Source: a virus
IMG/VR virus record: IMGVR_UViG_3300047476_000099
Location: 1-46,147 of that record
Length of the DNA: 46,147 nucleotides
Direction: 5' to 3' (one strand)
The notes beneath the pieces were generated by a model. The model made no database searches. It saw only the letters and a list, made by a program, of their open reading frames with translations, and was not told the DNA's origin. Made by a program: the position numbers and the translations under genes. Below are positions 23,764-28,432 of this stretch, in pieces (within the stretch, counting starts at the first letter, position 1; each line of letters starts with the position of its first letter).

Positions 23764-24285
23764 ATGGCAATTGAATCATTTGCATCTAACACACCACAAA
23801 ACTCTAGCATCCTACAGCTAACTCGCTTTACGTTTATCATTCCTGATAAGCCATATCTAAAATACTTTTGTCAGACTGTTGGGATTCCATCTGTATCAAC
23901 TAGTCCTGTTGCAGTAGCGACTCCCCTGACAACCACATTTCGTCATGGTGATAAGCTAGACTTTGAGGCTCTAACTATCACTGCAATTGTTGATGAAGAT
24001 ATGCGTATCTGGGAAGAGACATATAACTGGATGAAGGGACTTGTTCGTCCATCTGACTCCCGTGAGTATTTTAGAAAAGGTTTGCAGGACAAAACACCTC
24101 TATACTTTGACGGTTTTCTAACTGTCAATACCAATGCGAATAATCCTAACATTCGTTTCAAGTTCCACAACTGCCATCCAGTGTCACTTGGTGGAATTAA
24201 CTTTGATACAAAGACAGATGCTGACAACATTCCTACCTGTGATATTACATTCCGTTATGATCTATTTGAAGTGGAAAGACTTTGA
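23764..24285 (+). CDS. Tail-tube-fold protein (second gp19-like protein)
   Basis: A 173-residue protein with the layout of T4 tube-type proteins: an opening strand LTRFTFIIPDKPYLKYFCQ, a VGIPSVSTSPVAVATPLTTT stretch, GDKLDFEALTITAIVDEDMR, an acidic/aromatic helix WEETYNWMKG and a terminal CDITFRYDLFEVERL. It sits alone between the capsid terminator and uvsY, the place where cyanophage-type genomes have the tail completion gene 3, also near this size. I cannot decide between a tube initiator/terminator role and gp3 from sequence alone. It has its own late-type promoter, and its stop overlaps the -35 of the uvsY promoter. Confidence 0.6.
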   Translation: MAIESFASNTPQNSSILQLTRFTFIIPDKPYLKYFCQTVGIPSVSTSPVAVATPLTTTFRHGDKLDFEALTITAIVDEDMRIWEETYNWMKGLVRPSDSREYFRKGLQDKTPLYFDGFLTVNTNANNPNIRFKFHNCHPVSLGGINFDTKTDADNIPTCDITFRYDLFEVERL

Positions 24286-24310
24286 CATTTCCCTTGTGAT
24301 ATAGTATAAT
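24282..24310 (+). promoter_or_regulatory. Consensus sigma-70 (early) promoter of uvsY-uvsW
   Basis: TTGACA (24282-24287), 17 bases, then TATAAT (24305-24310): an exact match to the sigma-70 consensus with optimal spacing. It is about 24 bases before the uvsY ATG. The host polymerase should use it early. Confidence 0.9.
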
Positions 24311-26252: not shown

Positions 26253-26687
26253 ATGGAAGATAATATGATCCATCCCTTGGCTAAGTTTCTTAGACTACAG
26301 AATGGGGATGATTTGATTGCTGAGACCATTGAGACAGAAGATGAACATGGTGTAATATATACAGTATTCAATCCTCTCAAGGTTGTCTACCTCCCTTCCG
26401 AAACAGCCGGTTTTCTTTCCGTAGCTTTCACTCCATGGGTATTCCCTCGCATATGTGATCAGCAAGAGTTTTGTATTCATGGTGAAGACGTTTTGCTGGT
26501 TGCAGATGTTACAGAGAAGATGAATATATATTACTGGGATAGTGTAGAGGTTGCAGCCAGCAAGTCCTACGGTACACCAGAAGAAATCGCTGAAGAGACT
26601 CAGCAAGAACCAGAACCTGTGGAAGAGGATTCCGCACTAGCAGAAGCACTAGAGCAATTAGGAATTAATAAGAGGACATATCATTGA
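26253..26687 (+). CDS. Conserved phage protein, possible Sm-like beta barrel
   Basis: A 144-residue protein. The first 95 residues (FLRLQNGDDLIAETIETEDE, VFNPLKVVYL, ILF-type strands, FCIHGEDVLLVADVTEKMNIYYW) form a run of short beta strands of the kind seen in small Sm-like phage proteins found near uvsW/gp55 in T4-like marine phages. The remaining tail is acidic. The function is unknown. It follows uvsW by 3 bases and its TGA overlaps the next ATG. Confidence 0.5.
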   Translation: MEDNMIHPLAKFLRLQNGDDLIAETIETEDEHGVIYTVFNPLKVVYLPSETAGFLSVAFTPWVFPRICDQQEFCIHGEDVLLVADVTEKMNIYYWDSVEVAASKSYGTPEEIAEETQQEPEPVEEDSALAEALEQLGINKRTYH

Positions 26688-26965
26688 TGGCTAATACCAA
26701 CAAGTATCTTGACTTGGAGAATGGAGACGACTTCGGATTTACATTCCAGGAAGAACCCGATCTAACTCCGATCAATGATGAGGTCGCAGACTTAAAGGAA
26801 AGACTAGCGGCTATTAGAAAGATATATCTTCCACTATTACAGAACCTAGCTAAGAACGCAGATCAGCCAATTATCAAGTGGCCTGATCGCGGACCTGTGC
26901 TTAAAAAGCAGATAGATAAGATGGTGATGCTAACCGAACCTGGATTTAGTGATGGAGCTAAGTAA
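26687..26965 (+). CDS. Conserved small phage protein (FGFT...WPDR family)
   Basis: A 92-residue protein; ATG at 26687 overlaps the previous TGA (a TTG at 26684 is a less likely start). It begins with an acidic stretch containing DDFGFTF, then a helical region and KIYLPLLQNLAKNADQPIIKWPDRG. I know this pattern from small conserved proteins of T4-like marine phages without assigned function. It ends the uvsY operon. Confidence 0.5.
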   Translation: MANTNKYLDLENGDDFGFTFQEEPDLTPINDEVADLKERLAAIRKIYLPLLQNLAKNADQPIIKWPDRGPVLKKQIDKMVMLTEPGFSDGAK

Positions 26966-27052
26966 CTTGCTTCGCAAGTGGTCTCGCTTCGCTCGACAGT
27001 TGCAATTGGTATAAGTTTTCATCAGCTGTAACAGTTGCTGTTTGTTAATGCA
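26965..27052 (-). ncRNA. Candidate small RNA behind a minus-strand consensus promoter
   Basis: Leftward transcription from the promoter at 27059-27087 would start near 27052 and cross a region with no open reading frame of note. It would form two hairpins with GCGAAGC tips. One (26981-26997) is GUC/GAC with a tandem G-A mismatch; the other (26965-26979) is ACUUGC-GAA-GCAAGU. No U-run follows the last hairpin, so the end is uncertain and the transcript might continue as antisense to 26687-26965. This is an inference from promoter and folding only. Confidence 0.3.
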
Positions 27053-27058
27053 AAGCAT

Positions 27059-27087
27059 ATTATACCGATACTATTAAAACCTGTCAA
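27059..27087 (-). promoter_or_regulatory. Consensus sigma-70 promoter pointing left
   Basis: Read on the minus strand: TTGACA (27087-27082), 17 bases, TATAAT (27064-27059), preceded by GGCCC as in the two early promoters at 37901 and 40184. It is an exact consensus promoter in a window where all genes run the other way. Confidence 0.8.
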
Positions 27088-27102
27088 GGGCCTTTTTACA
27101 TT

Positions 27103-27861
27103 ATGTTTCACTTTTTTCACAAAACCCCTGAAATCAATCTTGACTGCTTCACTTCGGATAATTGTGTCTATACACATACTCCGATAGTTAGAGCTAGTAA
27201 GGCTTTTCCAGACTGGTGGAAAACATTAGATAGACATGAACCTCACTTTGAACATACACCAGAGAATCCTTTTCATCTAGTAGAAGAAAAAAACGCTAGG
27301 GATTGCTATGCAATCATAGAGCTATACAAGCGTGGTGTTATCATAGAGAATTGGTGTGACATATCATTCCGAACAGAGAATGGTGGATTCAACTATTGGT
27401 ATTCTTCCGGTCTACCTCCGCAGGCACATGAGAAGAAACAGATCAACTATGCTTTTCCAAATCATCATCAAATAAAGTTAGTAAGTCCGTGGGTCTTTCG
27501 AGAGACTACAGGCGTCAAGTTTCTATGGCTTGGTGCCGAATGGTCATTAGATAAACTTGAAATAAAAGTCTTGCCAGGCGTTATAAACTTTGATATAATA
27601 TCTGATATCAATGTGAACTTGATGTTTCCTGTAAGAGACGGAATCTTTACAATCAACGCTGGATTACCTCTAGTGCATTTAGTGCCTCTTTCAGATAAGA
27701 ACCTCAAGGTGACAAATCACATTGTCACGGAACAAGAGCTTAACAAGATTAGGATCAATTCAAGTCTTACATCTTTCTTCGGTTGGAGAAAAGCCTTGCA
27801 ATTGAGAAAACGAAACAGAGAACGGGGAACATGTCCGTTTCATGGAGATAAGAATGGCTAA
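27103..27861 (+). CDS. Conserved phage protein of unknown function
   Basis: A 252-residue protein. It has a conserved-looking middle (FPDWWKTL, IKLVSPWVFRETTGVKFLW, FPVRDGIFTINAGLPLVHLVP) and a basic C-terminus ending in CPFHGDKNG. The strand pattern from residue 85 to 205 is vaguely like DUF6065 proteins; I am not sure of this. It precedes and overlaps gene 55 by 8 bases. I see no consensus promoter directly upstream on this strand. Confidence 0.5.
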   Translation: MFHFFHKTPEINLDCFTSDNCVYTHTPIVRASKAFPDWWKTLDRHEPHFEHTPENPFHLVEEKNARDCYAIIELYKRGVIIENWCDISFRTENGGFNYWYSSGLPPQAHEKKQINYAFPNHHQIKLVSPWVFRETTGVKFLWLGAEWSLDKLEIKVLPGVINFDIISDINVNLMFPVRDGIFTINAGLPLVHLVPLSDKNLKVTNHIVTEQELNKIRINSSLTSFFGWRKALQLRKRNRERGTCPFHGDKNG

Positions 27862-28432
27862 GAAGAAAAACCATTACGTTGACAACGAACGTTTCCTAGC
27901 GGAGATTGTTGAATATAAGAAACAGTGTAAGATTGCAGCGGCTGAGGGTAAGGAGAAGCCTCGTCTATCGGAGTATATCGGTCAATGCATTTTCTTGATT
28001 GCTGAGAACCTAGCACACAAGCCAAGGTTCATGAACTATTCCTTTGTGGATGAAATGAAGTCGGATGCTATCGAAAACTGTCTAATGTATTTCGACAACT
28101 TTGATTCCGACAAGTATAGCAATCCGTTCGCATACTTTACCCAGATCATCTATTATGCGTTCCATCGTCGCATAAACAAGGAAGAAAAAAATCGTTATAT
28201 CATCTACAAGAAATTCCAAGAAAGTGTGCTAGATACTAGTGACGCAGGCCTTATGTTAGATGGTGAAGGTAACCACTTGATATCTACCACAATGTATGAT
28301 AATATTAATGACTTTATCGGTAACTTTGAGACGAGGGAACTCGCCAAGAAGGAAAAGCGTAAAGAAAAGAAAGAAGGCTTGGAGAAGTTTGTAGGAGAAG
28401 AAAATGAGCAAGATGGAAGAGAATCAGTTTGA
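27854..28432 (+). CDS. 55: Late sigma factor gp55
   Basis: A 192-residue homologue of T4 gp55 (185), the sigma factor that directs host RNA polymerase to TATAAATA late promoters with the sliding clamp as activator. Matching stretches are HYVDNERFLAEIVEYKKQ (T4: NYVNNKELLQAIIDWKTE), IFLIAENLAHKPRF (T4: IMLIAEGLSKRFNF) and DNFDSDKYSNPFAYFTQIIYYAFHRRI (T4: [27 protein letters not shown], in parts). ATG at 27854 is chosen over 27842 because GGAG sits 6 bases upstream and the N-terminus then fits T4. It explains the late motifs upstream of the virion genes. Confidence 0.9.
   Translation: MAKKKNHYVDNERFLAEIVEYKKQCKIAAAEGKEKPRLSEYIGQCIFLIAENLAHKPRFMNYSFVDEMKSDAIENCLMYFDNFDSDKYSNPFAYFTQIIYYAFHRRINKEEKNRYIIYKKFQESVLDTSDAGLMLDGEGNHLISTTMYDNINDFIGNFETRELAKKEKRKEKKEGLEKFVGEENEQDGRESV

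Follow-up and report, generated by a model that had tools for sequence, protein, structure and literature searches.

A conserved leftward promoter and covarying hairpins beside the late sigma factor gene in relatives of phage T4

The locus

The window, by which is meant the whole stretch of DNA analysed here, is a 46,147-nt fragment of a virus in IMG/VR, one that comes from a lake and is related to phage T4. Its genes follow the order gp23, tail tube, uvsY, uvsW, orf144, orf93, a gap, orf252, gp55, gp47, gp46. On the evidence of UvsW, its nearest isolates belong to the Kyanoviridae (identity up to 48%), and a search of annotated phages found no DNA match to the region. A cyanobacterial host was considered by way of psbA and the idea set aside: psbA was not found in any of seven relatives, of which four measure 165-174 kb. 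The gap measures 137 bases (26966-27102), as had been claimed in an earlier note on this DNA, and lies between the stop of orf93 (26965) and the start of orf252 (27103). The features in and around it are these:

26253..26687, plus strand: orf144, Sm/LSm-like protein (family profile and model)
26687..26965, plus strand: orf93, small protein for which family searches gave no match (open reading frame conserved in relatives)
26965..26979, minus strand: hairpin 2 (H2), ACTTGC-GAA-GCAAGT, abutting the orf93 stop codon; its stem covaries
26981..26997, minus strand: hairpin 1 (H1), GTC-GA-GC-GAA-GC-GA-GAC, with a tandem G.A step and a GAA loop; its outer pairs covary
26998..27050, minus strand: linker, G-poor and A/C-rich, presumably single-stranded judging by base composition; sequence and length vary
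27051..27052, minus strand: predicted transcription start, a purine 7-8 bases past the -10, placed by promoter geometry
27059..27087, minus strand: leftward sigma-70 promoter, an exact consensus match, with -35 TTGACA (27087-27082), a 17-base spacer and -10 TATAAT (27064-27059)
27103..27861, plus strand: orf252, absent in many relatives, where gp55 then adjoins the gap
27842..28432, plus strand: gp55, late sigma factor (phrog_234, E 4.7e-57)

Even among close relatives, some have orf252 between the gap and gp55 and others do not, and the annotated proteins that match it best, at about 24% identity, come from haloarchaeal viruses.

The promoter

The perfect leftward TTGACA-17-TATAAT that the earlier note had pointed out is indeed there, at 27087-27059 on the minus strand. 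Perfect TTGACA-N17-TATAAT sites number three in the 46-kb window, where shuffles lead one to expect 0.03. The remaining two face right, while this one points against all neighbouring genes. A perfect rightward consensus promoter stands directly before uvsY (24282-24310, plus strand). It had also been said that a GCCC extension is common to this promoter and two early ones. The sharing is real, in that the extended motif GCCCTTGACA occurs three times in the window (0.05 expected), with the other instances at +37897 and +40180, the -10 behind 37897 being imperfect. The extension is not conserved, however, because relatives carry GGGG, GGGC and others in its place. The purine at the predicted start position is kept in most relatives.

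Conservation in related genomes

Relatives were gathered by a UvsW search that was blind to the gap. It gave 46, and the gap is intact in 39 contigs, 23 of them distinct. Both promoter hexamers are exact in every one of the 39 (23/23 distinct gaps), with spacers of 16-18 bases, and the hairpin core is likewise kept in 39/39 contigs and 23/23 distinct gaps. Conservation in relatives, which the earlier note had proposed as a check, is thus borne out for promoter hexamers and hairpin core together. The 17-base promoter spacers, for their part, are only 55% identical on average. A second search ignored genes altogether and scanned 2.9 million viral contigs for the promoter-plus-hairpin pattern; the element was at the same place in all cases, except for a second copy in L069 and L112. 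These two share that copy (genome G004), which has the weaker promoter TTGCCA, and in L069 it lies on the minus strand about 3335 from the right end, in a gap flanked by a DUF7207 gene and a gene of 149 aa.

The direction of the promoter is also out of the ordinary in the relatives. In four near-complete genomes, perfect promoters that run in reverse amount to 1/13, 1/13, 3/16 and 1/16, so that in three of the four the gap promoter is the sole left-pointing one among 13-16. The predicted RNA heads antisense towards the 3' end of orf93, and the conserved element ends at the orf93 stop codon. Beyond that stop synonymous conservation is not raised, and an extended antisense constraint on orf93 and uvsW was therefore dropped. 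Taken together, comparison of the genomes makes it close to certain that the locus is a functional conserved element.

Hairpins and linker

Support for RNA structure comes from comparison with relatives and not from the folding energy of the window sequence alone, which is not unusual (z about 0). The outer pairs of H1 appear in compensatory variants (GTC/GAC, CAT/ATG, GAC/GTC, GTT/AAC), and all four Watson-Crick pairs occur at one position of H2. In L477 the otherwise invariant inner G-C pair of H1 is replaced by A-T, with pairing and loop kept. By count, 96.5% of cells are paired, and 7 pairs and 46 cells are changed on both sides. The covariation score is 0.511, as against 0.130 +/- 0.024 in shuffles (0 of 500 reach the score) and at most 0.095 in slid controls.

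The leftward, or minus, strand is the one that folds, because a T-G wobble in the outer H1 pair (where the plus strand would give A-C) and the tandem G.A step form only there; the folding energy is -10.1 kcal/mol for the minus strand and -6.7 for the plus strand. Across 37 distinct elements the linker has 9.6% G (A.42, C.30, T.18, G.10). From 27051-27052 to the end of H2 (26965), the predicted RNA has a length of about 87-90 nt, close to the 90 bases given in the earlier note, which had it end in hairpins. The hairpins are real. A U-run after H2 is absent in nearly all relatives, and no T-run is found on either strand, so that the hairpins are not a canonical intrinsic terminator and do not fix the 3' end of the RNA. 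An intrinsic terminator with a U-run is common in small RNAs and not obligatory.

Several other features came to nothing. Rfam gave no match at gathering score in the window region or in six relatives and isolates, and none at E <0.2 in the window region; a snoRNA-like match in the window (E 0.25) was taken as chance. A small peptide was rejected, since the spacing between hairpin cores ranges over 5-9 nt and reading frames shift with it. The motif GAGCGAAGCGA...TGCGAAGCA occurs in many unrelated bacterial genomes (L113-L230), far above what base counts lead one to expect. Not one of these stretches, at least 118 in number, has a TTGAC[AT]-TATAAT promoter just upstream, and for that reason they are taken to be unrelated dispersed repeats rich in GCGAAGC.

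Leftward promoters beyond the hairpin lineage

How far does the arrangement extend? Between the Sm-like gene and gp55, a leftward promoter with at least 10 of 12 matches is found in 15 of 16 Kyanoviridae isolates, among them S-PM2, Syn9, P-SSM2, P-SSM4 and Pelagibacter phage HTVC008M; that of Melnitz-3 is weak. A broader sample took in another 95 distinct relatives, by gp55 or gp47, that do not belong to the hairpin lineage, and here 46% have a leftward match of at least 11/12 in the 250 bases before gp55, as against 5.6% of control windows. The phages of the broad sample and the Kyanoviridae isolates are without the H1/H2 hairpins. In a second group of T4-like phages (L073, L093, L111) a leftward TTGCCA-N18-TATAAT is followed by a folded RNA of a different kind, which has a long stem, TGGAGTGAAACGACA/TGTCGCTTCGCTCCA, that encloses smaller hairpins. 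Its copies are these:

L093, 4426-4600 and 6892-7060, leftward: second-group folded RNA
L073, 2431-2585, leftward: second-group folded RNA
L111, 3269-3090, leftward: second-group folded RNA

The two copies of L093 flank the uvsY-uvsW operon, one lying before gp55 and the other before uvsY. It is therefore the position of the leftward promoter that is kept, next to the late sigma factor gene, while the RNA behind it differs from group to group. An inverted repeat just past the -10 (ATGC-TTT-GCAT) was tried as a special feature and abandoned: its stem length is 3.32, as against 3.36 at rightward promoters; in cyanophages it does not covary, and the broad sample (3.36, shuffled 3.32) has no excess.

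The neighbouring Sm-like gene

The family to which orf144 belongs is Sm/LSm-like, by family profile and by structural model. The profile matches PDB 3by7 (E 9.9e-10), and the AlphaFold model (core pLDDT above 90) reaches a target TM of up to 0.87 against the same structure, with yeast, archaeal and spliceosomal Sm proteins as the next matches. The homologues in Syn33 and S-CREM1 match Pfam Sm_like (1.7e-44 and 2.2e-26), while orf144 alone falls below the Pfam cut-off (20.2 vs 29.4 bits). Cyanophage homologues carry the annotation "methylamine utilization." In all Kyanoviridae checked, the Sm-like gene lies in this same operon with uvsW. By adjacency, the protein is suggested as a candidate partner of the predicted RNA.

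A small RNA or something else?

I propose, with somewhat more confidence than doubt, that the locus is an early gene for a small non-coding RNA, a reading I prefer to that of a replication origin. A consensus promoter of this kind would be expected to be fired early, and leftward, by the host sigma-70 polymerase. The transcript, of some 90 nt, would start near 27051; that it is made, when, and where its 3' end falls are all inferred. Its 5' part, G-poor and A/C-rich, would probably remain single-stranded over about 20-50 nt, with H1 and H2 following at the 3' side. The role of the hairpins would probably be to shield the 3' end and to offer a platform for protein binding, with the open 5' part free for pairing with a target or for binding it, and the candidate protein is the Sm/LSm-like one encoded two genes away (orf144).

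Two hallmarks of a small RNA are found at the locus: a promoter of its own in a non-coding gap, and covarying secondary structure. The earlier note had raised the same possibility, and it gains from the conservation of the promoter, the covarying hairpins and the asymmetry between strands. What it does not gain is a target, for the linker, when compared with phage ribosome-binding regions in four genomes, met none above the level of shuffled linkers. In addition, the promoter's position is kept more widely than the RNA's sequence, which fits a role in cis at least as well. No RNA has been described at this site in the literature covered; the Syn9 transcriptome and genome papers lie outside that scope, and an earlier report there is possible.

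The chief alternative is that the leftward transcript forms an R-loop and is processed to prime leading-strand synthesis. This is possible, if on the whole unlikely. The precedent is oriF of T4, which consists of a promoter and about 100 bp near uvsY, where an R-loop primes replication (PMC3016281). UvsW removes R-loops at oriF, and T4 origins lie near shifts in base composition (PMC3016281). For Syn9, replication of the theta type from a single origin has been predicted (PMC2984593). A promoter within an element of about 100 bp near uvsY, as oriF is defined (PMC3016281), is what is seen here too, and its position is kept while the RNA sequence changes. The cumulative GC3-skew minimum falls within 13.5 kb of the locus in ten of ten genomes and within 4.5 kb in six (-12, -4, -12.5, +0.5, +1.5, -2.5, -3.5, +13.5, +9 and -4.5 kb from it); in all ten the left half has a lower GC3 skew than the right half. 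The plain GC-skew minimum, or the value next to it, is at the locus in four lineage genomes.

Against this, the plain GC-skew minimum of S-PM2 is 65 kb from the locus, and the shift in skew coincides with the border between structural and replication modules, which could itself shift composition. There is no T4-type A+T-rich unwinding element in the lineage, because in four genomes of the lineage the stretch of 100 bp beyond the promoter has more G+C than the genome as a whole (A+T percentile 6-23); in six isolates the A+T percentile of this stretch is 49-97. The predicted RNA also contains little G, and a G-poor transcript does not, in general, favour stable R-loops. Then there are the additional copies elsewhere, in L069/L112 and in L093. 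Thus the origin primer imagined in the earlier note keeps the skew minima near the locus and the T4 precedent, and loses the unwinding element.

Under the origin explanation, the hairpins might fold in the strand that is displaced and assist in loading the primosome. Both H1 and H2 contain GCGAAGC, a sequence characteristic of single-stranded DNA mini-hairpins of great stability (PMC4686876): d(GCGAAGC) melts at 78 degrees C, and mini-hairpins of this kind follow the general rule of a GNA or GNNA loop (PMC4686876). The only loop variants seen, GTA (L036) and GTTA (L031), fit that rule. Two cases are too few to prove a DNA hairpin, and L477 replaces the inner G-C by A-T. Small RNA and origin function could, of course, both hold.

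Control in cis is a less probable account. Divergent or antisense transcription to the left would interfere with transcription of the uvsY-uvsW-Sm operon; by way of promoter elements that adjoin or overlap, it would also interfere with that of gp55 to the right, and so time the late switch. The conserved position beside the late sigma factor gene speaks for it, as do certain promoter pairs. In ACG-2014b (L235) a perfect rightward gp55 promoter (116482-116509) overlaps the leftward one, an arrangement seen in other cyanophages too, where polymerase binding at the opposed promoters may be mutually exclusive; in G004 the promoters stand back to back (119080, minus; 119134, plus). But the window gap itself has no clear rightward promoter, the antisense overlap is not conserved, and the covarying hairpins of the lineage are left unexplained.

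It is most improbable that the hairpins belong instead to the rightward mRNA, as its 3' end or a terminator directly after the orf93 stop codon, with the promoter a separate matter: their place would suit that, yet the wobble and tandem G.A pairs point to the minus strand, neither strand has a T-run, the spacing of the hairpins follows the promoter in all relatives, and the second copy in L069 keeps promoter and hairpins together. Chance resemblance to a promoter is scarcely credible, for while a consensus match alone is no proof of function, one so rarely expected in the window and exact in all distinct relatives is at odds with chance.

A broader scheme, which I hold to be doubtful, would have a leftward RNA gene at a fixed site throughout Kyanoviridae and related T4-like phages, its RNA working with the phage's Sm/LSm ring protein and its site also marking a replication origin.

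Significance

T4-like Kyanoviridae are among the most abundant viruses of the ocean, and very few non-coding RNAs are known from them. Here a promoter is kept at one site across phages that share only about 47% identity in UvsW, and it faces an operon that encodes an Sm-like protein. The recurrence of its position across the phage family, the Sm-like protein of the operon it faces and the halt of the element at the orf93 stop all go beyond the earlier note. That a promoter is kept at the same place in most ocean and freshwater relatives suggests a control RNA or a starter of replication that current annotation has overlooked. The locus offers an RNA that can be tested directly, a possible partner for it and a place where the replication origin of Kyanoviridae might lie.

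Comparison with known systems

The d(GCGAAGC) mini-hairpins share their sequence with both H1 and H2. Theirs is a property of a DNA oligonucleotide (PMC4686876), whereas here the sequence sits within longer covarying stems behind a promoter. The likeness to T4 oriF lies in a sigma-70-type -10, an element of about 100 bp near uvsY/uvsW and a proposed place at a shift in base composition. Unlike the gap promoter, oriF has a middle promoter of the MotA kind, together with an unwinding element rich in A+T; the gap promoter has the full early consensus, runs against the direction of the genes, and is followed in the lineage by G+C-rich DNA.

CfrI of cyanophage S-PM2, an antisense RNA at psbA (PMC2984593, PMC5931967), is likewise a leftward non-coding RNA of a Kyanoviridae phage, though the one considered here is predicted. 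CfrI is about 225 nt long and runs antisense to two genes, psbA and one for a homing endonuclease (PMC2984593), whereas the present site lies between the Sm-like gene/orf93 and gp55, in a lineage where no psbA was found in relatives. PreS of lambda and VpdS of VP882, phage small RNAs that act with Hfq, resemble the predicted RNA in having their own promoter, in being short and structured, and in a possible partner from the Sm family. They rely on the Hfq of the host, and their targets are known (PMC12197685); in the present case the candidate partner, the Sm-like protein, is encoded by the phage itself.
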